This document shows, one piece after another, positions 1-49,774 of a stretch of 62,191 nucleotides of DNA. Below the pieces are notes generated by a model. The model was not told the DNA's origin. It worked only from the letters and a program-made list of their open reading frames with translations, and did no database searches. This stretch comes from Deltaproteobacteria bacterium (GTDB lineage Bacteria > Desulfobacterota > Syntrophia > Syntrophales > UBA2210): positions 1-62,191 of the forward strand of contig JAFGBH010000007.1 of assembly GCA_016933215.1 (NCBI GenBank), read 5' to 3'. The translations under genes were made by a program, and so were the position numbers. The stretch's first letter is position 1. Each line of letters opens with the position of its first letter.

Positions 1-3000
1 ACTTTCCTGACACCCACTCCTGCGCATCGTCAAGCATGAGGTAAACCACGGGGACGACCAGAAGCGTCAGAAGCGTCGATGAAATCATCCCTCCGATTAC
101 GGCAATGGCCATAGGGGCCCGTGTTTCACCACCCTCACTGAGAGCCAGTGCCACCGGTACTACACCAATTATCACGGCCGATGCCGTCATCAGAATTGGT
201 CTGAGTCGAATGGGCCCTGCCGTGAGCATCGCCTGAACCTTGTCCATACCCTTTCGTCGCTGCTGATTGGCAAAATCAACGAGAAGAATGCCGTTTTTAG
301 TAACAATACCCATGAGCATGATGATGCCGATAAAGGAGAAGATGTTCAGCGTTTTGCCCGTCAGGAGAAGGGCACCGAAGACGCCAACCATGCAGAGCGG
401 CAATGCGAGCATCATCGTAAAGGGGTGGACAAAGGACTCGAACTGGATGCAGAGAATCATGTAAATCACGAGCACGGCTATCAGCAGTGCCTGAAACAGA
501 TACTGGAAAGATTCTTTGAAGACCTGGGTTTTTCCCACAAGAGCTGTGTCCCAGTTCCCATCTTTCGGCAGATATTTACCGATAATCTCTTCTGCCTTCA
601 CGAGGCCTTCTCCGACGGAAATCTTTTCCACATCAGCATAGAGGGTGAGCGAACGCATACGGTCAAACCGGTTGATGACGTTCGGTCCCATGCTTACCTC
701 CTGGGTAATCAGGTTTGAGGCTTCGATAAGGCGACCGTCTCGGGCTCGAACCGAGATGATCTCGAGGCCTGAGGGGTCCGTTCTGAATTCGGGAAGTGCT
801 TTTACACGGATATCGTATCGATAACCCCCTTCTTTGAACTTTGCCGCATCGGTTCCTCCGAAGAGGATATAGATTTCATCGGAGATGGATTTGACATCAA
901 CACCGAGATCGTCGGCGAGATCCCGGTTGATATGAACCTTGACATCCGGTTTGGTAATGCGAAGGTCCGTATCGACTCCCACAAAGATATCCTGTGATCT
1001 CAGATCCGCGACAATCTGCTCACTCACCCGTGCCAGCTCTTCTACGGAAGGGCCTTTGATGACAAGATCAACATCGGCGTAGCGTCTGCCCCCTCCAATC
1101 TGCTCGAGGTATTCAACGGAGGAGATCATGTCTTTGTAAGCATCAAGTTTTGTTCGCATTCTTCTCATGATTTCCCGCTGGCTCTCCTTGCGTTCTCCTT
1201 TGGGAAGAAGATTTACGATCATGACACCCTTGTTTACTTCTGAACCTCCCCCGACGCCGATCGCACCGAAGTATTGTTTTGTCTCGGGTTGAGCTGCAAC
1301 AATTGTTTCAAGTTCATAGAGCCTTTTTGCCGTTTCTTCAATCGAGGTGCCCGTGGGAAGTTCAAATCCGATCTTAAACTGGGCCGAGTCGGCCTGGGCA
1401 ACGAACTCGGTTCCTATAAACCGCACCAGATATATTCCGATAACAAAGGTGGTAACCGCAATGAGAATAACCGTCCAGCGATATGTAACTGCCCATTCCA
1501 GGGCCCTTCGATAGCCGCGCTCTACAGCCAGAAAGGCATTTTCAAGGATTATGTAGAGTTTTTTGTGAGATCTCTGGTGGTGGAGCATGCGTGAGCAGAG
1601 GAGGGGTGTCAGCGTCAGAGAGACAAGTACCGAAATGATGATCGTGAGTGCGACCGTCATGCCGAACTGGTAGAAAAAGCGACCGATCAACCCTTTCATA
1701 AAGGCCACGGGAATGAAAACCGCCGCCACGGAAGAGGTGGCGGCAATGACGGCAAGACCCACTTCGCCGGTTCCCACACTGGCGGCATTCATTGGATCTT
1801 CGCCAGCCTCCACATGACGAAAGATGTTTTCCATTACCACGATAGCGTCATCGATCACCATTCCGACAGAGAGCGACATGGCAAGCATAGTGAGATTGTT
1901 GACGGTAAATCCCAGGGCATTCATGAGGACGAAACCGCCGATGAGCGAGATGGGGATTGCCGTGACGCTGATGAAGGTGACTCTGATATTCCTGAGAAAG
2001 AGGTACATGATAAGGGCGGTGAGAATGACACCAAATATAATGTCAAACCGCACCCCTTCCATAGATTCCTTGATAAATCCCGAGGTGTCGAGGGCAATAC
2101 CGATAGAAATGCCTTCGGGGGCGTCTTTCTTGATTTTCTCCAGTTTTGCCTTCACGGCATCGATAACTTCCGTCGTATTGGTGCCGGACTGTTTTCTGAT
2201 TCCGAGCCCTATTGCGGGGAGACCGTTAAAACGGGCAATATTTCTCAGGTCCTCAAATCCATCGTCTACTTTTCCCAGTTCCTTCAGGCTGATCGTAGTA
2301 CCGTCTCGCTCGGCCACCACCAGATTTTTCAGCTCTTCAACAGAGGTGAATTCGCCTTTGACCTTGACGCTGTATTCCTTCTCCTTCGTTTCGATCCGGC
2401 CGCCCGGCATTTCAAGGTGCTTCGATTTAATGGCGGCTACCACGTCCTGGGCCGTGAGCCCTCGTGCCTTCAATTTTTCCGGATTGAGCCAGACGCGTAT
2501 TTCCCGTTCTCTCAGTCCTCCCAGCTGGATGTTTCCCACGCCGCTTATCGATTGCAGCTGTTCCTTCAGTACCTTGTCGGCATAGTAGGACATTTCGCCG
2601 TAATCGGCGCTTCCGTAAACGGTGATCCACATAACGGCGTTTGACGCCGTATCCATTTTGTCAACCACGGGCTTTTCCACGTCATCGGGAAGATCTCTCT
2701 CGGCGAGGTTTACCTTTGCGCGGACCTCCTGGGCAGCCACATCAACATCCTTTTCCAGCTCGAATTCGACGGCAATAATGGAAAGGCTTTCGTAGCTCTG
2801 AGACATGAGAAATTTGATACCGCCAATGGTCTTGATCTGTTCCTCCAGGACATCAGTGACATCGGCATCGATGACCTCGGGACTGGCACCCTCGAGAACC
2901 GTTTGCACAGTAACGACGGGAAAATCGATTTCGGGAAAGAGATCGATGCCCATGCTCTTATAGGCAATCCAACCAAAGATAAGAATGGCTGCCATGATGG

Positions 3001-3046
3001 TCAGTGTCATGACAGGGCGTCGTATGGAAGTATCCGAAATCAGCAT
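1..3046 (-). CDS. RND efflux permease, HAE1/AcrB type (partial: C-terminus off window)
   Basis: Inner-membrane proton-driven permease of a tripartite efflux pump. The frame is open from the ATG at 3046 to base 1, about 1015 codons against roughly 1040 usual for the family, so only a short C-terminal tail is missing. The N-terminus has the family form (ISDTSIRRPVMTLTIMAA, then IDLFPEIDFP). Around residues 390-405 the TM4 motif GMVIDDAIVVMEN carries the paired Asp (399/400) that relay protons in AcrB. The visible end LLVVPVVYLMLDD is the usual last transmembrane segment. The same frame holds at both landmarks, so I see no frameshift. It lies 44 bp after the channel gene and is probably cotranscribed with it. 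Substrate cannot be told from sequence. Confidence 0.93.
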   Translation of the reverse strand, partial: MLISDTSIRRPVMTLTIMAAILIFGWIAYKSMGIDLFPEIDFPVVTVQTVLEGASPEVIDADVTDVLEEQIKTIGGIKFLMSQSYESLSIIAVEFELEKDVDVAAQEVRAKVNLAERDLPDDVEKPVVDKMDTASNAVMWITVYGSADYGEMSYYADKVLKEQLQSISGVGNIQLGGLREREIRVWLNPEKLKARGLTAQDVVAAIKSKHLEMPGGRIETKEKEYSVKVKGEFTSVEELKNLVVAERDGTTISLKELGKVDDGFEDLRNIARFNGLPAIGLGIRKQSGTNTTEVIDAVKAKLEKIKKDAPEGISIGIALDTSGFIKESMEGVRFDIIFGVILTALIMYLFLRNIRVTFISVTAIPISLIGGFVLMNALGFTVNNLTMLAMSLSVGMVIDDAIVVMENIFRHVEAGEDPMNAASVGTGEVGLAVIAATSSVAAVFIPVAFMKGLIGRFFYQFGMTVALTIIISVLVSLTLTPLLCSRMLHHQRSHKKLYIILENAFLAVERGYRRALEWAVTYRWTVILIAVTTFVIGIYLVRFIGTEFVAQADSAQFKIGFELPTGTSIEETAKRLYELETIVAAQPETKQYFGAIGVGGGSEVNKGVMIVNLLPKGERKESQREIMRRMRTKLDAYKDMISSVEYLEQIGGGRRYADVDLVIKGPSVEELARVSEQIVADLRSQDIFVGVDTDLRITKPDVKVHINRDLADDLGVDVKSISDEIYILFGGTDAAKFKEGGYRYDIRVKALPEFRTDPSGLEIISVRARDGRLIEASNLITQEVSMGPNVINRFDRMRSLTLYADVEKISVGEGLVKAEEIIGKYLPKDGNWDTALVGKTQVFKESFQYLFQALLIAVLVIYMILCIQFESFVHPFTMMLALPLCMVGVFGALLLTGKTLNIFSFIGIIMLMGIVTKNGILLVDFANQQRRKGMDKVQAMLTAGPIRLRPILMTASAVIIGVVPVALALSEGGETRAPMAIAVIGGMISSTLLTLLVVPVVYLMLDDAQEWVSGK

Positions 3047-3090
3047 AGTCTGTTATCCTCTCACCCCTTCTGTAAGATACTCTATGAAAC

Positions 3091-4539
3091 TCAATTCCTG
3101 ATCGCTTCTGTCCCCTGAGGTTTTTCGTCACTGGAAAGAATTCCCATTGCCATATGAAGATCGAGCCGGGCAAGCGCATGGTCAAAGAGGCTCTTGTAAT
3201 AAAGGAGTTGTGCCTTTGTCAGGGCGGAACGTGCATCGAGCACCGAAACCTGATCGAGAATACCCTCTCTGTAGCCCACCTCGGCAAGCCGGAGACCCTC
3301 CTGCGCCTGTTCAACCGTCAGTTTCTGAACGTTAACGGATTCGTCGGCATCCCTGAGATTCAGAATGGCAGTCCGCACTTCAAAAAGTGCCCGTTCACGG
3401 GCGTCGACAAGCCCGATTTCTCGCTTCCTTACCGAGGCCTTTTCCTGGGTGACTCGACCCTCCCGTACCAGACCGTCAAAAATGGGAATCGTGACGTTGA
3501 TTCCGGCAAACCACGCGTTTTCCCAATCGTCATTTGTAAGAATGTAGGGATCCGGTTTTCCCATAACATAGTTATAGAAGGCATTTATCTGAGGCAGGTA
3601 CCCGCTCTTTGCCACATTCAGGGATTCATTCTGCAGTTGTAACGACAGGTCGGCGGCGGCGAGATCGGGTCTGTTTCTGAATGCCTCGTGAATTGCCGTC
3701 TCCTCTTCAACGGTGAGGGGTTCGTACACGAGGCTTTCCGTCGGTTCGATTCTGCTTTCCTGGGACATTCCTATTACCTGAAGAAGATTGACCACTGCCG
3801 TGTTATATTTATTCTGAAAAGAGATCATTTCGGCCTGCGCATTCGATAGATCGACCTGTGATCGGAGCACATTAAAATCTGAGGCCGTACCGAACCTTCT
3901 TTTTACTGTGACGTCTTTCAGGTGTGCCTCGGCGAGCGCGACATCCGCGGTGGTGACTTTCATCTGCTCGCGGACAAGCTGCGTCTGGCGGTAGGCCCTG
4001 ATCGTTTCATACATTGTTTTTTGAACTGCGCCCCTCACGTTCTCGTCCGTCAGCGCATCGTAGAAACGGGATGCCCTCAGGGCGGCAGTTGCCGCCCCCC
4101 CCCGGTATAAGGGTTGTGTGACCGAAAGGACGCCCTCGTAGTTGTCCTTCTCGCCAAGAGGGTAGGTAGTTCCTTCTATCTTTTTGCTGTCCCTGTCCTG
4201 ACGAGTGTAGTTTCCGTTCAGCGTGACGTTGGGCAGCACTCCTCCGTATGCCTCGAGGATTCGACCCTTCGCCACATTTTTTTCTTCTACTATGGCCTGC
4301 AGTTCGCGATTATACGTGAGGGATAGTTTGAGGGCCTTTTCGAGTGATAGAGGACCCTGAATGATTGTTGTCTTATCACCTGTTGCCTTTTTCTGATGCT
4401 GCCACTCCTTAAAGGCCGCTTCCCCCGTCGCGGTCAGGTTCTTGTTGATGTCCTGCCTGGTCGCACAGCCGCAGAGGATGAGAAAAATAACGACGCAATA
4501 TGCAGTGTTTTTCATGGTGGTGATGGATGCCTTTTGCAT
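3091..4539 (-). CDS. TolC-family outer-membrane efflux channel, lipoprotein
   Basis: Outer-membrane factor of the adjacent RND pump (OEP family, 482 aa). The N-terminus is a lipoprotein signal with lipobox LCGC, acylated Cys25. The family motif PLYRGG sits near residues 143-148, and two long helical repeats with alternating Ala/Leu/Val heptads fill the rest (for example TAALRASRFYDALTDENV). The ATG at 4539 follows GGGGG at good distance; Met9 lacks a ribosome site. The PLYRGG codons contain an unbroken run of nine G on the coding strand (4095-4103), which could slip. It lies between the TetR gene (49 bp) and the permease (44 bp). No membrane-fusion protein gene sits between them, which is unusual. 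Confidence 0.92.
   Translation of the reverse strand: MQKASITTMKNTAYCVVIFLILCGCATRQDINKNLTATGEAAFKEWQHQKKATGDKTTIIQGPLSLEKALKLSLTYNRELQAIVEEKNVAKGRILEAYGGVLPNVTLNGNYTRQDRDSKKIEGTTYPLGEKDNYEGVLSVTQPLYRGGAATAALRASRFYDALTDENVRGAVQKTMYETIRAYRQTQLVREQMKVTTADVALAEAHLKDVTVKRRFGTASDFNVLRSQVDLSNAQAEMISFQNKYNTAVVNLLQVIGMSQESRIEPTESLVYEPLTVEEETAIHEAFRNRPDLAAADLSLQLQNESLNVAKSGYLPQINAFYNYVMGKPDPYILTNDDWENAWFAGINVTIPIFDGLVREGRVTQEKASVRKREIGLVDARERALFEVRTAILNLRDADESVNVQKLTVEQAQEGLRLAEVGYREGILDQVSVLDARSALTKAQLLYYKSLFDHALARLDLHMAMGILSSDEKPQGTEAIRN
4095..4103 (-). repeat. G9 homopolymer inside the efflux-channel gene
   Basis: Nine consecutive G on the coding strand (C on the plus strand) encode the Arg-Gly-Gly of the conserved PLYRGG motif. 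Loss or gain of one base would shift the frame near codon 147. The frame is intact as read here. Confidence 0.8.
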
Positions 4540-5275: not shown

Positions 5276-5647
5276 GAAAAAAGTTTCGTCCATTCTATGG
5301 TTTTCGAAGTGAGATATCATGTAGTCGTACGATATCTCCTGTCGGTACATATGAAGCTTCAGAATTTATTCGGGAAAATCAGGCGAATGATGAAAAAATG
5401 GATGAGCTTTAATGTAACAGCTGCGCACTGAGATATTCCCTCTCTTTTTTGTATCTTACCCCGCGTCAATGTAGCACCATATGATGCAATTTTTTGATCG
5501 ATACCGCAACTTTTTTATTTTTCAGACCGGGATAAAAAATTATTTGAACTGAACAGCGAGCGCATTCCCCGTTGCTTGCAGCGGGGTTAGCGAGCGAATA
5601 AAAATAAAATATTCCTTAATCCCGACAATCGGGATAAGTGCGTTAAC

Positions 5648-5685
5648 GAATTTATTTTCTGCCGGAAAACACAGAAAATAAATTC
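5648..5685. repeat. 14-bp perfect inverted repeat
   Basis: GAATTTATTTTCTG (5648-5661) and CAGAAAATAAATTC (5672-5685) pair perfectly around a 10-nt loop. It is AT-rich, unlike the GC-rich hairpins around it. Confidence 0.8.
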
Positions 5686-5770
5686 TAACTTACTAAACAA
5701 TCGGAGATTCCCCGCAACTGTCGCAGCAAAAGTGGAGATCCCGCTTATACGGGATTGCGGGGAGCTTCAA

Positions 5771-5804: not shown

Positions 5805-5870
5805 TTTGAGTGACTACCTGTCTGGCCGGGGGCGCACCCGCAAGCCCCGCCCTGTGGGCGGGGAGCTTCA

Positions 5871-6305
5871 TTATCTTTTTATGACATGAACGGGCTTTTT
5901 GGCTTTTCGTATTACCTTTTCCGAGACGGAGCCGAGAAACATTTCCTCTATGTTGCTTACTCCGTGAGATCCTATGGCCATGCTGGAGACATTCTCTTCT
6001 CTTTCCACTCTCAATATTTCGGTGAAGGGGTCTCCTGTTTCAATCCGCACCTTGACCTTGAAGCCCAGATCCTTCAGTTCTTTTTCGATTGGTTCTATCT
6101 CGCTTGTTACTTCTTTTAAGAGATCCCTTTTCATTTCGGGTAGGTCCTTTGTGGTGTACCAGGCTATAGCGTCAAAGAATCTTTTGTCAATGACATGAAG
6201 GATGACAACCTCTTCTGCGCCTGCGTTTTTAAGTTCTTTGATGAAATCGAGGGCCTTTTGTGCCACATCCGAGAAATCTGTGGGATAGAGAATTTTCTTG
6301 AACAT
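5871..6305 (-). CDS. Universal stress protein, UspA family
   Basis: 144-aa cytosolic protein of the Usp fold. The start MFKKILYPTDFSDVA is the classic first strand and nucleotide-contact Asp. Residues 112-126 give the ATP-binding signature G-x2-G-x9-G-S (GSHG, then GS), so it belongs to the ATP-binding subgroup. It is the last gene of an eight-gene minus-strand run, 25 bp after the release-factor-like gene. Its stop abuts repeat locus A1. A role in stress physiology is inferred from family only. Confidence 0.93.
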   Translation of the reverse strand: MFKKILYPTDFSDVAQKALDFIKELKNAGAEEVVILHVIDKRFFDAIAWYTTKDLPEMKRDLLKEVTSEIEPIEKELKDLGFKVKVRIETGDPFTEILRVEREENVSSMAIGSHGVSNIEEMFLGSVSEKVIRKAKKPVHVIKR

Positions 6306-31228: not shown

Positions 31229-31340
31229 TTGAAGCACCCCGCAATCCCGTATAAGCGGGATCTCCACTTTTGCTCCGACAGTTGCGGGGAATCTCCGATT
31301 GTCAAGGAAAATGTTTGTTTCTTATTTGCTCGCTGTTCAA
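31229..31340 (-). repeat. Family A palindromic repeat (locus A2, reverse orientation)
   Basis: Read on the minus strand it runs from TTGAACAGCGAGCAAATAA to TTGCGGGGTGCTTCAA. It shares the nested hairpin of locus A1 almost base for base (outer CCCCGCAA/TTGCGGGG, inner ATCCCG/CGGGAT with TTATA loop). It sits between the mla operon terminator and the promoter of the next gene. Confidence 0.85.
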
Positions 31341-31373
31341 GTCAAACCGGTAGGGTATGGTTTGAAAAGTCTG

Positions 31374-37379: not shown

Positions 37380-37620
37380 TTGAACTGAACAGCGAGCGCA
37401 TTCCCCGTTGCTTGCAGCGGGGTTAGCGAGCGAATAAAAAATAAAATTTTCCTTCACAGTCGGAGATTCCCCGCAACTTGTTGCGGGGAGCTTCAATTGA
37501 ACAGCGAGCGAATATAAAATTAAAATTTTCCTTAATAATGGAGCTCCCCGCCCACAGGGCGGGGCTTGCGGTTGCGCCCCCGGTCGGAGATTCTCCGCAA
37601 CTTGTTGCGGGGAGATTCAA
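37380..37620 (+). repeat. Family A palindromic repeat (locus A3, two tandem units)
   Basis: Unit one (37380-37496) runs TTGAACTGAACAGCGAGCG, hairpin CCCCG/CGGGG, CGAGCGAATAAAAAATAAA, TTTTCCTT, CGGAGATTCCCCGCAAC-TTGT-TGCGGGGAG, CTTCAA. Unit two joins it at TTCAATTGAAC and adds the GAGCTCCCCGCCC/GGGCGGGGC hairpin seen reversed in locus A1, then a second CTCCGCAAC/TTGCGGGGAG hairpin and ATTCAA. It fills most of the gap before mfd. Open frames across it are products of the repeat. Confidence 0.9.
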
Positions 37621-37676: not shown

Positions 37677-40600
37677 GTGAGAAAACGAGTACATGCAAAA
37701 ATAGAATTTTCGGATCCTGCCCTGAGTTCTCTCGTGAACAATGTTCTTCAGGGGAACAGGGAAACGGTGATCTGCGGCCTGAATGGGTCCGCCCCCGCTC
37801 TCGTAACTTCCATCCTTTTTGATAATATCGAGAGGCCCCTTATTTACGTAAGCCTCACGGAAAATGAGGCAAAAAATGCCGTTCGCGATCTCTCCTTTTT
37901 CCTGGGAGAGGAAAAGGTCTCACTCTTCCCTTCCTGCGACATCCTCTCTCTTGACGATACCCTGTCCCATCAGCGGGATATCTCGGCACAAAGGGTAAAG
38001 ATTCTTTATCAGTTGTTGTCGGGGAGCCCCGCCGTTTTTGTGGTTCCCCTGAGCGCGCTCACGCAGAAGGTCATGCCGATGAATGCGATCATGGAGTATA
38101 CGGAGGACATTGCCGCAGGGGTATGCTTAGAGAGGGACCGGTTCATAGAAAAGCTGATAGAAGGCGGTTATGAAAGGGTTTCGCTGGTTGAAGAAATGGG
38201 TGAGTTCAGCGAACGGGGCTATATTATGGATGTTTTTCCTCCCACCGCATCAAGGCCGCTCCGGATGGAATTCGTCGGCGATGAGATTGAATCGGTGAGA
38301 GAATTTGATGCTACAAACCAGAGATCCTTGAAAGAGGTAAAGGGATTTGTGCTTTCGCCGGCGGGAGAGCTCGTAATGTCTCCCGGATCAAAAGAGCGGG
38401 CATTGAAAAACCTGAGGGGAAGGGCAGGTGATCTTGACCTTTCAAAAAAGGAGCGGGATCGCCTCTTCGGTCTCCTTGAATCTGATTCATCCGTCCTGAC
38501 AAACCTGCAGTGGTTGCCGCTCTTTTATAACGATTTTTCAGCGGGAGAAAATAACGGTCTGAATACGCTCTTTGATTATGTCTCAAAAGGGTGCCTCGTG
38601 ATGTGGGATAATTTAAATGCCATGGCCGAGGCTGACGAAAAGATCGAGAATGACCTGGATCGTTTTATGAAGCGGGCGAATGAGAGGGACACCTTCTATC
38701 TGGAACGGGAGTCTTTTCATCTTTCGGGAAAGGAACTTCTCGAAAAATATGACGGCCTGCAGAGGGTCCTCGTTGAATACCTGCCCCTGACAAGGAGTAA
38801 GGCCATTCGGTTTGGGACGGAACGGAATGTCGGCTTAAAACAGGAGATGGCACTTCTGGGAAAAGAAGACAGGATGCTGAAACCCCTCGCCGAAAAAATC
38901 AGGGAGTGGATCGGCAGGAACGATCTCGTTACCTTCCTCTGCGGTGAGGGTGAGACCCAGAAAATGAGACACCTCCTGGAGGAATACGCGCTCGAAATCG
39001 AAGATGCCCGTCCCACTTTTTTTGACGATATGACGTCACGCCCGGATGGCACGGGACGACTCGTCCTCAGAGAGGGCAAGATCACCGAGGGATTTTTCTA
39101 TCCCGACCTGAATCTGATTATCGTAAGCGAAGAAGAGATATTCGGCAAAAAGATAAAAAGAAGAAAAAGGACAAGGGTACGGGAAGGATATTTTCTCAAA
39201 TCATTCGGTGAATTAAAGGAGCGGGATTTTGTCGTACATGTCGATCACGGCATTGGAATGTACCACAAGCTCAAACGGTTGAAGATCGGGACAATTGAAA
39301 ACGATTTTCTCCTTATCGAGTACTTCGGCGGGGACAGGCTCTACATACCGGTGGACAGACTCGATCAGATTCAGCGCTATATCGGTCCCGAAGGCCATCT
39401 GCCGGGTATGGATAAACTGGGGGGGACGTCCTGGGAAGCGGTAAAGAAAAGAATAAAACAGTCGGTGAGAGAAATTGCGGAAGAACTCGTTTCCATCTAT
39501 GCTGCCAGAGAGGTGATGGAGGGGCACCGGTTTTCTCCCGCCGATAGGTATTATGAGGAGTTTGAATCCTCTTTCGAGTTCGAGGAAACTCCCGATCAGG
39601 CGCAGTCAATCATTGAAGTCAATCAGGATCTGAGCAATTCGAAGCCGATGGACAGGCTGGTCTGCGGTGATGCGGGATTCGGAAAAACGGAGATTGCCCT
39701 CAGGGCGTCTTTCAGGGTTTCCATGGATGGAAAACAGGTGGCACTCCTGGTGCCGACGACAATCCTGGCAGAGCAGCATTACCAGACCTTTCTGAAACGA
39801 TTTGAAAAATATCCTGTTCGTGTGGAAGTCCTGAACAGATTCAAGACGAAAAGCCAACAGAATAAAATTGTTGAAAATATAAACGAGGGGTTGGTCGATA
39901 TCGTGATCGGAACCCACCGTATTTTACAGAAGGACCTGCGGTTCAAAAATCTCGGCCTCGTGATTATCGATGAGGAACAGAGATTCGGGGTAAAACACAA
40001 GGAAAGACTGAAAAAGCTCCGGACGATGGTGGACGTTCTTACCCTGACGGCAACTCCCATACCGAGAACACTCCAGTTATCCCTTGTAGGGATACGGGAT
40101 CTTTCGGTTATCGATACACCGCCGCCCGACCGGCAGTCTGTTCGGGTTCATGTCTCCGAATTTGATGAGGACCTTATCAGGGAAGCCATCGGAAATGAGC
40201 TCATTCGGGGGGGGCAGGTTTTCTTTGTCCACGACAGGGTGAAATCGATATACAGTATCGCCCGTTTTGTGGAAAATCTCGTTCCCGAGGCGAAGATCGG
40301 TGTCATTCACGGCCAGATGAAGGCGAGCGAGATTGAGGATGTAATGGTGAAATTTGTTCGCAAGGAGATGGATGTCCTCGTATGCACCACGATTATAGGA
40401 TCGGGGCTCGATATACCATCGGCAAATACCATCATCATCAATCGCGCCGACAGGCTTGGATTATCACATCTTTACCAGCTCAGGGGAAGGGTGGGAAGGT
40501 CGAATGAGGAGGCCTACGCCTATCTTCTGATTCCCGAAGGGGCGATACTTTCGCGGGACGCCAGAAAAAGACTGCGCGTTGCCCAGGAGTTTTCGGAACC

Positions 40601-41219
40601 GGGGTCCGGGTTCAAGGTTGCGACCCATGATCTGGAGATACGGGGCGGAGGAAATCTTCTGGGAATCTCCCAGTCGGGCCATATCTCCGCCGTGGGATAC
40701 GAGCTCTACACGGAGCTTATGGAAAAGGCGATTGGTGAATTGAAGGGTGAGAGGCCCTCCGAAGAGGTGGTCAGCCCGGAAATTTCCTTCGGCATACCTG
40801 CCTTTATCCCCGATGACTACATCGCCGATATGCAGACCAGGCTTGTGACCTATAAAAAGATATCGATGGCATCCTCCGACGATGTCATCTTCGATCTAAG
40901 AGAGGAGCTTTCAGACTGCTACGGTTTCATACCCGAACAGGTGGAAAACCTCCTCAATATTATAGCGATACGGAATATCTTAAAGAAGGTCGTGGCGGAA
41001 AAAATGCACTACGACGGAAAGGCCATGCATATTTCCTTTCGGGAAAAGAGCCCCGTTGATCCCGCGAGGATACTTGAACTCTCAAGGGGGAAACTGAAAG
41101 GGCTCCGACTCACACCGGACTTGCGGCTCTCTGTTCCGATGCCCGGCCTTCAAGAGAGCGAGATCATTGCTCATGCCAGAAGCCTCCTGGAATCGTTGAT
41201 GAAAGAGAAGGAACATTGA
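37677..41219 (+). CDS. mfd: Transcription-repair coupling factor
   Basis: 1180 aa. Removes stalled RNA polymerase from lesions and recruits UvrA. Domains in order: UvrB-like module, about 1-330; polymerase-interacting CarD-like domain about 510-570 (RDFVVHVDHGIGMYHKL, GGDRLYIPVDRLDQIQ); superfamily 2 helicase with Walker A VCGDAGFGKTEIALR, DEEQ box IIDEEQRFG and motif III TLTATPIPRTL; RecG-like translocation motif region QLRGRVGRSNEEAYAYL; C-terminal TRCF domain (PEISFGIPAFIPDDYI). The start is GTG 37677, because a stop lies just upstream in frame and no ATG occurs early; the ribosome site is poor. uvrA lies downstream at 42.5 kb. Confidence 0.96.
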   Translation: MRKRVHAKIEFSDPALSSLVNNVLQGNRETVICGLNGSAPALVTSILFDNIERPLIYVSLTENEAKNAVRDLSFFLGEEKVSLFPSCDILSLDDTLSHQRDISAQRVKILYQLLSGSPAVFVVPLSALTQKVMPMNAIMEYTEDIAAGVCLERDRFIEKLIEGGYERVSLVEEMGEFSERGYIMDVFPPTASRPLRMEFVGDEIESVREFDATNQRSLKEVKGFVLSPAGELVMSPGSKERALKNLRGRAGDLDLSKKERDRLFGLLESDSSVLTNLQWLPLFYNDFSAGENNGLNTLFDYVSKGCLVMWDNLNAMAEADEKIENDLDRFMKRANERDTFYLERESFHLSGKELLEKYDGLQRVLVEYLPLTRSKAIRFGTERNVGLKQEMALLGKEDRMLKPLAEKIREWIGRNDLVTFLCGEGETQKMRHLLEEYALEIEDARPTFFDDMTSRPDGTGRLVLREGKITEGFFYPDLNLIIVSEEEIFGKKIKRRKRTRVREGYFLKSFGELKERDFVVHVDHGIGMYHKLKRLKIGTIENDFLLIEYFGGDRLYIPVDRLDQIQRYIGPEGHLPGMDKLGGTSWEAVKKRIKQSVREIAEELVSIYAAREVMEGHRFSPADRYYEEFESSFEFEETPDQAQSIIEVNQDLSNSKPMDRLVCGDAGFGKTEIALRASFRVSMDGKQVALLVPTTILAEQHYQTFLKRFEKYPVRVEVLNRFKTKSQQNKIVENINEGLVDIVIGTHRILQKDLRFKNLGLVIIDEEQRFGVKHKERLKKLRTMVDVLTLTATPIPRTLQLSLVGIRDLSVIDTPPPDRQSVRVHVSEFDEDLIREAIGNELIRGGQVFFVHDRVKSIYSIARFVENLVPEAKIGVIHGQMKASEIEDVMVKFVRKEMDVLVCTTIIGSGLDIPSANTIIINRADRLGLSHLYQLRGRVGRSNEEAYAYLLIPEGAILSRDARKRLRVAQEFSEPGSGFKVATHDLEIRGGGNLLGISQSGHISAVGYELYTELMEKAIGELKGERPSEEVVSPEISFGIPAFIPDDYIADMQTRLVTYKKISMASSDDVIFDLREELSDCYGFIPEQVENLLNIIAIRNILKKVVAEKMHYDGKAMHISFREKSPVDPARILELSRGKLKGLRLTPDLRLSVPMPGLQESEIIAHARSLLESLMKEKEH

Positions 41220-42384: not shown

Positions 42385-42500
42385 TTGAACCTCCCCGCAA
42401 CACGTTGAGGGGAATCTCAGATTGTTAAGGAAAATGATTGTTTTGTATTCTCGCTTCCCCCGCCTTAGAAAGCGGGGACCGCGCTCGCTGTTCAATTCAA
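42385..42500 (-). repeat. Family A palindromic repeat (locus A4, reverse orientation)
   Basis: On the minus strand it runs TTGAATTGAACAGCGAGCGCGG, hairpin CCCCGC/GCGGGG, GAAGCGAGAATACAAAACAA, TTTTCCTTAACAATC, then CCCCTCAACGTGTTGCGGGG and GGTTCAA. It ends ten bases before the uvrA start codon, so uvrA has no clear ribosome site of its own outside the repeat. Confidence 0.85.
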
Positions 42501-42510
42501 AGTTCGCGAT

Positions 42511-45333
42511 ATGAAATGTATAAAAATAAGGGGTGCGTCACAGCACAACTTAAAAAATATTAATGTTGATATTCCAAGGGACGAACTCGTGGTCATTACC
42601 GGTGTCAGCGGTTCCGGCAAGTCGTCCCTTGCCTTCGATACCATCTATGCAGAGGGGCAAAGAAGGTATGTCGAGTCCCTCTCGACCTATGCACGCCAGT
42701 TCATCGGTCAGATGGACAAACCGGAGGTCGAACTGGTCGAAGGCCTCTCTCCAGCAATAGCGATCGAACAGAGAACGGCAAGCCATAATCCGCGCTCGAC
42801 GGTGGGGACAATCACCGAGATCTATGACTACCTGCGTCTCCTCTATGCGAGGGTGGGAGTGCCCCACTGTTACAAATGTGGCAGAGAAATCATGTCGCAG
42901 ACCGTTGAATCGATGGTGGACAAAGTGCTCCTCCTTCCGGAGAAAGCGAAGATTAATATACTCTCTTCCATCGCCAGGGGAAAGAAGGGCGAATATCAAA
43001 AGGAACTGCGAAAACTCCGGAAAGAGGGGTTTGCACGGGTCAGGATAGACGGAGAAACCAGGGACCTTTCCGAGGAAATCGTTCTTGATAAGAACAAACG
43101 GCACGATATTGATGTGGTCATAGACAGGCTGGTAATCAAGAAGGGTATAGGTCGGCGTTTGCGGGATTCCATCGAGATAGCCCTCGGACTCTCCGATGAT
43201 ATTATCAAGGTAGACGTGGTGGGGGGCGAGGAACTCCTCTTCAGCGAGGTCTATGCGTGTCCCCTATGCGGTATCAATATGCCCGAGCTTGCCCCGCGGA
43301 TGTTTTCCTTCAACAGTCCCTACGGAGCCTGCCACGAGTGTGGAGGCCTCGGGACAAAGGTGTTTTTCGATGAAGATCTTGTGGTACTCGATCCCTCGCT
43401 TTCCATACGGGAAGGGGCCATTGCACCCTGGGATAAAAGACGTTCCGTCTACTTTCACCAGATGCTCGAATCCCTTTCAAACCATTACGACTTTGACATC
43501 AATACCCCCTACAATCAGTTGCCCGACAGGATAAAAAATATTCTTCTCTACGGGTCCGGTTCCGAGGAGATCGAATTTTACTTTGACAGAAAGAGAAAGC
43601 GGCATTTTTACACGAAACCCTTTGAAGGTGTTATGCAGAACCTTGACCGGCGCTACCGGGAGGCTGATTCTCATGATCTGAGGGTGGAACTCGCGAGGTT
43701 CATGAATATAAGGGATTGCCCCGCCTGCAATGGGGCGAGATTAAGAAAGGAAAGCCTCTCCGTCACCGTGGGGGAGAAAAATATCCATGAAGTCTGTCTG
43801 ATGTCGATCGGCGAGTGTATGGAATTTTTTGATACCCTTTCCCTCACGGAGACAGAAATTCTGATTTCCAGGAGAATTTTCAAGGAGATCAAGGAACGAT
43901 TGAGATTTCTCCTTGACGTGGGGATGGATTATCTCAATCTTGCCCGGTCATCCGGCACACTTTCAGGTGGGGAATGGCAGCGTATCCGGCTTGCAACCCA
44001 GATAGGATCGGGTCTCGTGGGGGTGCTCTACGTTCTTGATGAACCGACGATTGGCCTTCATCCCAGGGATAATGTCCGCCTCATTGCTACCCTCAAACGG
44101 CTGAAAAATATGGGGAATACGGTGCTCGTAGTGGAGCATGATGCCGAAATAATTAACGCCTCCGATACTATTATCGATATGGGCCCCGGCGCGGGATTGC
44201 ATGGAGGGGAGGTTGTCTTTCAGGGTTCGCCCGAAGAGATTCGCGCCTCCGAGACATCCCTCACGGGGAAATACCTTTCGGAAAAATTGTCAATTCCCGT
44301 ACCCGAAAAGAGACGGTCGATCACGGATACCTTTATTTTCATTGAGGGGGCCTCGGAGAATAACCTCAAGAATATCGACATAAAGATACCCGTCGGAGTC
44401 TTTACCTGTGTCACCGGGGTGTCGGGTTCCGGCAAAAGCACCATGGTAATAGAAACGCTCTACAAGGCACTTCGCAGGAGCCTGAACAGATACAGGGGCA
44501 AGACGGGGAAGTATAATAAAGTCAGAGATTACGGCGGTATCGAACGGGTCATCACCATGGACCAACAGCCGATAGGGCGGACTCCCCGATCAAACCCGGC
44601 AACCTACACGGGTGTTCTTACCTATATCCGTGACCTCTTCAGCCGCCTTCCCGAATCGAGAATGCGCGGATACAAACCGGGCAGATTCAGCTTCAACGTC
44701 AAGGGCGGAAGATGCGAGGCCTGCGAGGGGGATGGCCTGAAGCGGATAGAGATGCACTTTCTTCCTGATATCTATATAACCTGTGATGTCTGCCACGGAA
44801 AACGCTTTAACAGGGATACCCTTGAGATACTCTACAAGGGAAAGAGTATCGCCGATGTTCTCGATATGACGGTCAATCAAGCACTTCTGTTTTTCAGCAA
44901 TATTCCGGTCATAAAGACGAAGCTGCAGCTTCTCTCCGATGTGGGGCTCGGGTATATCAAACTCGGTCAATCGGCGACGACCCTCTCGGGGGGTGAGGCG
45001 CAGCGGGTAAAACTGGCGAGAGAACTGGGGAAGCGGCTTACCACCAATACGCTCTACATACTGGATGAGCCTACAATCGGCCTTCACTTTGCCGATATAG
45101 AGAAACTTCTCGGCGTTTTGATGAGACTGGTGGAGATGGGAAACACCGTCGTCGTGATAGAGCATAATCTCGATGTCATCAAGTGTGCCGACTATATCGT
45201 GGATCTCGGGCCGGAAGGCGGAGACGGCGGCGGATGGATCGTTGCGGCCGGTGCTCCCGAGAGGATCGTCAAGGTAAAAAAATCTCTTACCGGTCAGTTT
45301 CTGAAAAAGGTCCTGTCGAATGGTTCCCGGTAG
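42511..45333 (+). CDS. uvrA: Excinuclease ABC subunit A
   Basis: 940 aa, normal length. DNA-damage recognition ATPase of nucleotide excision repair, partner of UvrB and of Mfd encoded upstream. First Walker [15 protein letters not shown], first zinc site CPLC...CHECGG, first ABC signature [29 protein letters not shown]. Second ABC unit: [14 protein letters not shown], zinc finger CEACEGDG...[25 protein letters not shown] and [13 protein letters not shown]. The start [19 protein letters not shown] is canonical. It ends 9 bp before the convergent thiolase-like gene. Confidence 0.97.
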
Positions 45334-48495: not shown

Positions 48496-48606
48496 TAGCC
48501 TTACTTCGTGGATCTTCAATTCGCTGGATTTGCTGTGTAAGTGGGTGCTCTGAGGTATCTGCCGCAGGGCTTTTCACAAATTTTCATTGTTAAAGGAGGG
48601 TTTGTT

Positions 48607-49653
48607 ATGTTTTACGAAGAACGATGTACTCTGTGTGGAGACTGTCTCGTCAAGTGTCCCTATCTTGCCTATCCCGAGGAAAAAGCGAAAGTGGAGTTCA
48701 AAAAGCTGATAGATGGTGAGCCAACGCCTGTCACGGCAGAGTGCATTACCTGTGCCGCCTGCAACATGTTCTGCCCGGAAGGAGCAAATCCCTTTGATCT
48801 CATCAACGACCGGCAGGAGGAAACGGGAACCTTCAAGGTTACCGAACAGTCCCTCGCGATGATGGGGATGGCTGATCAACTCCCCTCGGAGGTTATTGAA
48901 GGTGATCTCGGGAAACCGGCCATGAACCTCTGCTCCGTGGGGGATTTTTTGCCCGGCGTTATCGAGGGGCAGCTCTTCGACGGGCTGACGCTTATCAAAG
49001 GGGGTGATTACTTCTGTTATGTCGGCTGGATACACGTGGGAAAACCGAGTAAGGTGAAGGAAAACGCACAGAAGTTCGTGGACAATCTGGCCGCGACGGG
49101 GGCCGAAGAGATTATCTGCTACCACGATGACTGCTATGTGATCCTCGCGAAGAAGGCGGGGGAGATGGGAATAGAAGTACCCTTCAAGGTGACCCATATA
49201 ATAGAATATCTGAGAGATTACGTGAAGGATCATGCGGAAGATGTGAGGAAACTGAACATGAAGGTGGCCTATCAGCAGCCCTGCGCCTCACGCTACACCT
49301 TTGAAAAGGATGGGATGCTCGATGAACTCTTTGATCTCATCGGCGTTACGCGGGTGGCAAGAAAATTTGATCGAACGGATTCGCTCTGCTGCGGTGGAGC
49401 AATGGCCGCCATGGTCGATGTGCCAAAAGAGGTACTGAACGGGTGGCGTATGAAAAATATCATGGATGCAAAGGATGCCGATGCGGAAGCGATGATCTTT
49501 CTGTGCCCCATGTGCGCCCTCGGCCTCAGGAACCGGTCAAAGGCAGAAGGGCTTGAGCCCTATATGCTGAGCAACCTTGTCCGTCTCGCACTTGGTGAGG
49601 AATTGGTCCACGGTGGTGCGGGGAAACGGTTCGAATTGAGCAGCGAGCGCTAA
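48607..49653 (+). CDS. Iron-sulfur oxidoreductase, HdrD/GlpC-like with CCG domains
   Basis: 348 aa from ATG 48607 after AAAGGAGGG. Two [4Fe-4S] ferredoxin motifs: Cys7/10/13/17 (CTLCGDCLVKC) and Cys46/49/52/56 (CITCAACNMFC). A degenerate first CCG region (CYVGW, CYHDDCY) and a canonical second one (QQPCASRY, SLCCGGAMA, FLCPMCALG) follow, so it probably holds a noncubane cluster as in heterodisulfide-reductase-type proteins. It would pass electrons between ferredoxin-like donors and an unknown acceptor. The last codons (ELSSER and stop) are read from repeat locus A5, so its native C-terminus may have been replaced. Confidence 0.88.
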   Translation: MFYEERCTLCGDCLVKCPYLAYPEEKAKVEFKKLIDGEPTPVTAECITCAACNMFCPEGANPFDLINDRQEETGTFKVTEQSLAMMGMADQLPSEVIEGDLGKPAMNLCSVGDFLPGVIEGQLFDGLTLIKGGDYFCYVGWIHVGKPSKVKENAQKFVDNLAATGAEEIICYHDDCYVILAKKAGEMGIEVPFKVTHIIEYLRDYVKDHAEDVRKLNMKVAYQQPCASRYTFEKDGMLDELFDLIGVTRVARKFDRTDSLCCGGAMAAMVDVPKEVLNGWRMKNIMDAKDADAEAMIFLCPMCALGLRNRSKAEGLEPYMLSNLVRLALGEELVHGGAGKRFELSSER

Positions 49654-49736
49654 CCCCGACCGCCTGCGGCGGGGTTAATGAGCGAATAAAAAACAAACAT
49701 TGCCGGGAAGCCCCGCCCTGTGGGCGGGGAGATTCA
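49636..49736 (+). repeat. Family A palindromic repeat (locus A5), overlapping a gene end
   Basis: TTGAGCAGCGAGCG, hairpin AACCCCG/CGGGGTT (loop with GCCTGC), ATGAGCGAATAAAAAACAAA, then AAGCCCCGCCC-TGT-GGGCGGGGAG and ATTCA. The first 18 bases encode the end and the stop codon of the upstream iron-sulfur protein. Confidence 0.85.
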
Positions 49737-49774
49737 CAGTGATTATAGCAATCTTTCAAAGGAGGGCGTAAAAA

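Follow-up and report, generated by a model that had tools for sequence, protein, structure and literature searches.

What is the hairpin repeat that recurs between TTGAA and TTCAA along this DNA, and what moves it? The window, i.e. the whole stretch of 62,191 nucleotides that we analysed, is contig 60 of the host MAG (2.69 Mb, 102 contigs, 97.8% complete). An earlier note had described five loci of the repeat, here called family A, and all five are present where it placed them, as six units. Unit bounds are given without the left TTGAA-like target. Unit A1 (5549-5770, + strand) is the full-length form of 222 bp, with left hairpin, linker, middle hairpins, right hairpin region, and TTCAA end. 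Its target TTGAA (CL; 5544-5548, +) is assigned from the target logo and the empty sites described below. Unit A2 (31229-31340, − strand, 112 bp) has lost the left hairpin and has TTGAC as target (31341-31345, −). Unit A3a (37385-37496, +, 112 bp; target TTGAA (CL) at 37380-37384, +) is the canonical form, composed of the CATT left guide and hairpin, a linker, the GATT right guide and hairpin, and the TTCAA end. Unit A3b (37497-37620, +, 124 bp), which has lost the left hairpin, directly abuts A3a, and the TTCAA of A3a occupies the target position of A3b. Unit A4 (42385-42495, −, 111 bp; target TTGAA at 42496-42500, −) lies upstream of a uvrA-like gene. Unit A5 (49636-49737, +, 102 bp; target TCGAA at 49631-49635, +) is a chimera of a family A left end and the right end of a second family, family B (guide GAAG, end TTCAC).

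Family B is also present as a short single-hairpin unit beside A1 (5827-5871, +) and as a unit inverted within A3b (37539-37583, −), where the site is not a canonical B target. The CCCGCCC/GGGCGGG module that the earlier note had taken for a reversed part of the repeat belongs to family B, in the inverted unit, in the unit beside A1, and in the right end of the chimera. By ORF calls, four of the five loci are intergenic; that note had placed all of them between genes or at gene ends. At the exception, the 49636 locus, an ORF (48541-49653; 4Fe-4S and CCG domains) enters unit A5 and ends inside it, the last codons and the TAA stop being supplied by the element. Between 36364 and 45333, A units flank repair and folding genes, namely PPIC/SurA-like, mfd-like (37677-41219), and uvrA-like (42511-45333) genes. 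A tRNA is the only Rfam match in the window.

The earlier note had called for a genome-wide consensus search. With at most one mismatch, the 2.69-Mb host genome contains 156 matches to the left end TGAACAGCGAGC (4 to its reversed pattern) and 202 to the right end GCGGGGAGCTTCA (3 to its reversed pattern). Family A is present in about 200 copies in the host genome, far above chance, and about 40 of these match one 112-bp unit at 87-100% identity. Left ends that lack a right end lie at contig ends or have decayed right ends, and are not long gene-bearing copies. Several host contigs begin or end within or beside an A copy, indicating that the assembly breaks there and that an autonomous copy is easily lost.

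In the class as a whole, 69 of 155 genomes and 28 of 53 genera have a family A match. Across lineages the linker and the outer sequence vary, and the guides, hairpins, and ends persist, a pattern that fits long residence with lineage-specific bursts. A search of viral contigs with the left hairpin pattern gave no match. On plasmids of three Candidatus Manganitrophus MAGs of the Nitrospirota (L291, around 2983-3104; L292, around 1483-1604; and L293), a diverged copy that shares the guides and ends occupies one site, beside a TMEM165/GDT1 gene. A contig filed under a Dehalococcoidales MAG (L044, JAQTVR010000118) carries the element type of the three relatives discussed next and is possibly misbinned.

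A related form, TTGAA-CATGCATAGCGAGCG..., occurs in three closely related MAGs (JASEGX, QYQD, and DSAQ; G041-G043), which were searched with the joined flanks from 19 filled loci. For six of these loci, the MAGs contain clean empty sites at 92-98% identity (filled/empty pairs L063/L157, L048/L160, L050/L163, L056/L158, L031/L159, L037/L166 and L161), whereas L059 is not a clean empty site. The empty sites come from these relatives and not from the window's own copies. Family A is present at, or absent from, a fixed target between relatives and is thus mobile. The earlier note had proposed a mobile, genome-wide, hairpin-based family, set against the case of only these copies and no mobility; about 200 copies and six empty sites bear the proposal out. 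The empty sites contain TTGAA once, indicating that TTGAA is target DNA and that TTCAA is the right end of the element. Therefore, only the second of the two bounds proposed earlier is part of the repeat. As in PATEs, the target is not duplicated at the six empty sites, a 2-bp AA duplication being formally possible.

The flanks agree with this assignment of the boundaries. In a logo of 55 left ends, information in the left flank is confined to the five bases TTGAA, with none beyond. The right flank is biased at +1 only (T 36, C 7, A 4, G 0; pyrimidine in 43 of 47), and IS608 likewise disfavours purines at +1 (PMC5934647). The right end remains TTCAA where the left site varies (TGCA, TGAC), which rules out an inverted duplication of the target. 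As in PATEs, there are no terminal inverted repeats: the complementarity is limited to the target TTGAA and the end TTCAA, the former being target DNA.

The full family A form is 222-224 bp long. Its left hairpin is flanked on either side by a AGCGAGCG repeat; next come an A-rich linker and a middle hairpin region, and the form closes with a right hairpin and AGCTTCAA. Shorter forms of 189-191, 145, 111-114, 103-105, and 72-80 bp each lack one or more modules. Most other module differences appear to be internal deletions of one ~222-bp form, and the 'optional left hairpin' corresponds to a loss between the AGCGAGCG repeats. The idea that the repeat is assembled from exchanged parts therefore holds for one real A/B chimera (unit A5), most of the remaining variation being due to internal deletion or to nesting with family B. 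Family B has the same plan, TTGAC-CGGGGGCGCACCCGCAAG-hairpin ... CCGGGAAG-hairpin-AGCTTCAC. Elements range from 46 to 224 bp, too short for a transposase gene.

The left and right hairpins are direct repeats on one strand and share a CTTG loop. Over 17 diverse copies, pairing holds in 98.2% of the cells and a double change is seen in 15; no shuffle out of 500 does as well, indicating that the hairpins are maintained by compensatory changes. Both hairpins form when the element is folded as single-stranded DNA, with z-scores of -2.6 and -4.0. Palindromes with covariation are thus positioned near both termini, as in PATEs. A few left hairpins have GCTAACCCC in place of GCATTCCCC, making the palindrome longer and removing the CATT guide (L099, 49636-49680 of the window, and L040 around 3089); this has the look of a templated correction of the quasi-palindrome that followed insertion.

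IS608 has the guides AAAG and GAAT 5' of its hairpins; they pair with the cleavage sites TTAC and TCAA, respectively, and the contacts A+16:T-3 and A+17:T-4 are reported (PMC5934647). The four bases 5' of each hairpin behave likewise here. In family A, CATT pairs with TGAA and GATT pairs with TCAA; in family B, CAAG pairs with TGAC and GAAG pairs with TCAC. The last bases of guide and site also pair in IS608, consistent with both of its ends. At the hairpin foot the guide rule gives six of six Watson-Crick pairs in family A (three lineages) and in family B (two lineages; the boundary of family B was set one base to the right of the first alignment to suit the rule, the base C being conserved at both ends), as compared with at most three of six at other offsets. 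The chance of a six-of-six score for one family is 2.4e-4. Crossed pairings, A guides with B sites and B guides with A sites, give four of six. In particular, the change of the guide from T in family A to G in family B is accompanied by a change of the site from A to C.

The match extends beyond the host. Of 40 further copies, drawn from 23 genomes and 70-94% identical overall, most retain CATT/GATT and TGAA/TTCAA, some of them at no more than 70-80% identity, and the Candidatus Manganitrophus plasmids, from another phylum, have the same guides and ends. In a few copies the guides are altered, possibly by changes after insertion. Insertion 3' of a fixed 4-5-nt target that is kept at the left, together with a guide tetranucleotide complementary to the cleavage site, is what characterizes IS200/IS605 elements. 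A preference for the lagging-strand template gives a nominal signal that loses significance when the strand bias of TTGAA is taken into account (p = 0.23).

Mobility, the target site, clean insertion, hairpin conservation, and guide-site complementarity together make it very probable that A and B are non-autonomous, PATE-like IS200/IS605-type elements moved in trans by a Y1 HUH transposase via guide-site pairing. The enzyme, supplied from elsewhere, would act on single-stranded DNA, binding the hairpins that both ends carry on the same strand, and the tetranucleotide 5' of each hairpin would base-pair with the cleavage site (CATT-TGAA and GATT-TCAA in A; CAAG-TGAC and GAAG-TCAC in B). The element would exit as a single-stranded circle, at whose junction TTCAA would be joined to CTGAACAGCG, and would integrate, with no target duplication, on the 3' side of TTGAA (A) or TTGAC (B). 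The kind is ordinary (IS200/IS605-type, PATE-like), the family is new, and the guide-target match is unusually clear.

Which gene encodes the enzyme? In the host MAG, we found no match to the Y1 transposase profile PF01797, which covers RAYTs, none to a 12-sequence Y1 alignment at E<=10 (a query run without a positive control), no TnpB (PF07282), and no IS91-type Y2_Tnp (PF04986). Neither Y1 nor TnpB was found in G011, G027, G029, and G031. The autonomous IS200/IS605 elements encode their own Y1 TnpA; here no such gene lies within the element or in the host MAG. Over 41 genomes, a Y1 gene is present in 11 of 16 element carriers and 17 of 25 non-carriers, indicating no association, and the two most element-loaded genomes, G000 and G027, have no Y1 gene that we could find. 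In G000, near-identical A copies indicate recent activity, so that the enzyme gene must have been lost in assembly or binning, been lost recently, or escaped recognition. We favour loss from the assembly, because the repeats break contigs.

For an autonomous partner, A ends were sought around the Y1 genes of carriers, and we found no gene enclosed by such ends there; one RAYT-type gene has an A unit ~530 bp away (L189). In G016, the TTCAA end of one A unit borders immediately on an IS200-type tnpA element (contig C7; L088 1261-1446, L088/L211), as if that end had been used as a target or were a hot spot. Three degraded IS91-type genes in G027 (L231, L232, and L233, on C11, C28, and C16) each have an A or B unit within ~1.2 kb, in one case a few bases away; units are dense in this genome, and the proximity may be due to chance.

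The gene search bears on the alternatives. We consider it unlikely that the elements are mobilized by an enzyme that is not a recognizable Y1 transposase and yet reads IS608-type DNA guides; if true, it would explain the recent near-identical copies in Y1-less genomes and the lack of co-occurrence. The mobilizer proposed in the earlier note, a tyrosine-type REP transposase, is correct in that the anatomy points to a Y1 single-strand transposase. A REP/REPIN family spread by a RAYT (TnpA_REP) is nevertheless improbable. The elements are short, intergenic, and hairpin-based, GGAG occurs near the right hairpin of family A, and relatives commonly have RAYT-like genes of 220-350 aa. However, GGAG is replaced by GAAG in many lineages, the guides are CATT/GATT (A) and CAAG/GAAG (B) rather than the GTAG/GTGG located 0-2 nt 5' of the hairpin that defines REPs (PMC6006769), and the hairpins are direct rather than the inverted doublet of REPINs or BIMEs. 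In addition, PF01797 is missing from the host and does not co-occur with the elements, the TnpA-REP-type gene flanked by the repeat that the earlier note anticipated is not found in the host draft MAG, and RAYT gene neighbourhoods lack A ends, save the one unit mentioned above.

Still less probable are two other transposition mechanisms, which we rank equally. If the elements were MITEs mobilized by a DDE transposase that duplicates a 2-bp AA target, each would run from C to TTC between AA repeats. AA is present on both sides, and sequence alone cannot separate TTGAA|element..TTCAA from TTG-AA-element-AA. However, this reading leaves the guide rule unexplained and does not account for a right end that is constant despite a varying left site. 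Apart from 5 nt complementary to the target, the elements have no terminal inverted repeats, and their near-terminal hairpins are direct repeats. Rolling-circle elements of the IS91/ISCR type (Y2 HUH) would account for the one-sided target without duplication, and in G027 a few bases separate an A unit from a degraded IS91-type gene; but the host has no Y2_Tnp, matches are confined to 12 of 41 genomes, many carriers having none, and IS608-type guides fit without a Y2 enzyme. Finally, the elements can hardly be static regulatory palindromes (terminators, mRNA stabilizers) spread by recombination. They are mostly intergenic with stable hairpins, but recombination explains neither the clean presence and absence at a fixed target between relatives nor a logo of the target only.

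The Y1-type reading agrees with known systems. PATEs of Haloquadratum walsbyi (PMC3119063) are, like A and B, transposase-free and too short to encode a transposase, with near-terminal palindromes at both ends, no target duplication, core deletions, and many copies. As far as tested, however, the sequences of A and B are unrelated to those of PATEs, we found no IS605-type transposon that shares their ends, and their guide-site pairs can be stated explicitly, each of the two families in one genome having its own. IS608 and ISDra2 (PMC5934647, PMC8612924) likewise have same-strand hairpin ends with guides 5' of each and a one-sided target without duplication, and the right cleavage site of IS608, TCAA, is that of family A. 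Unlike these, A and B have no tnpA or tnpB inside, insert at TTGAA/TTGAC rather than TTAC/TTGAT, and have different guides. REPs and REPINs with TnpA_REP (PMC6006769, PMC8266576) are also short, abundant, intergenic hairpins tied to Y1-type enzymes, but A and B lack the GTAG/GTGG tag, have direct hairpins, are discrete two-ended insertions at TTGAA, and have no RAYT gene found in the host MAG.

The elements are widespread in one bacterial order and break its MAG assemblies. The puzzle they pose is which enzyme moves ~200 copies in a genome without a detectable Y1 gene. The guide rule is known from IS608 and its engineering; in the present, natural case, two gene-less families that share genomes differ in their guides and, correspondingly, in their target and end sites. 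The difference between A and B would thus be a natural retargeting event, and one that is directly testable.
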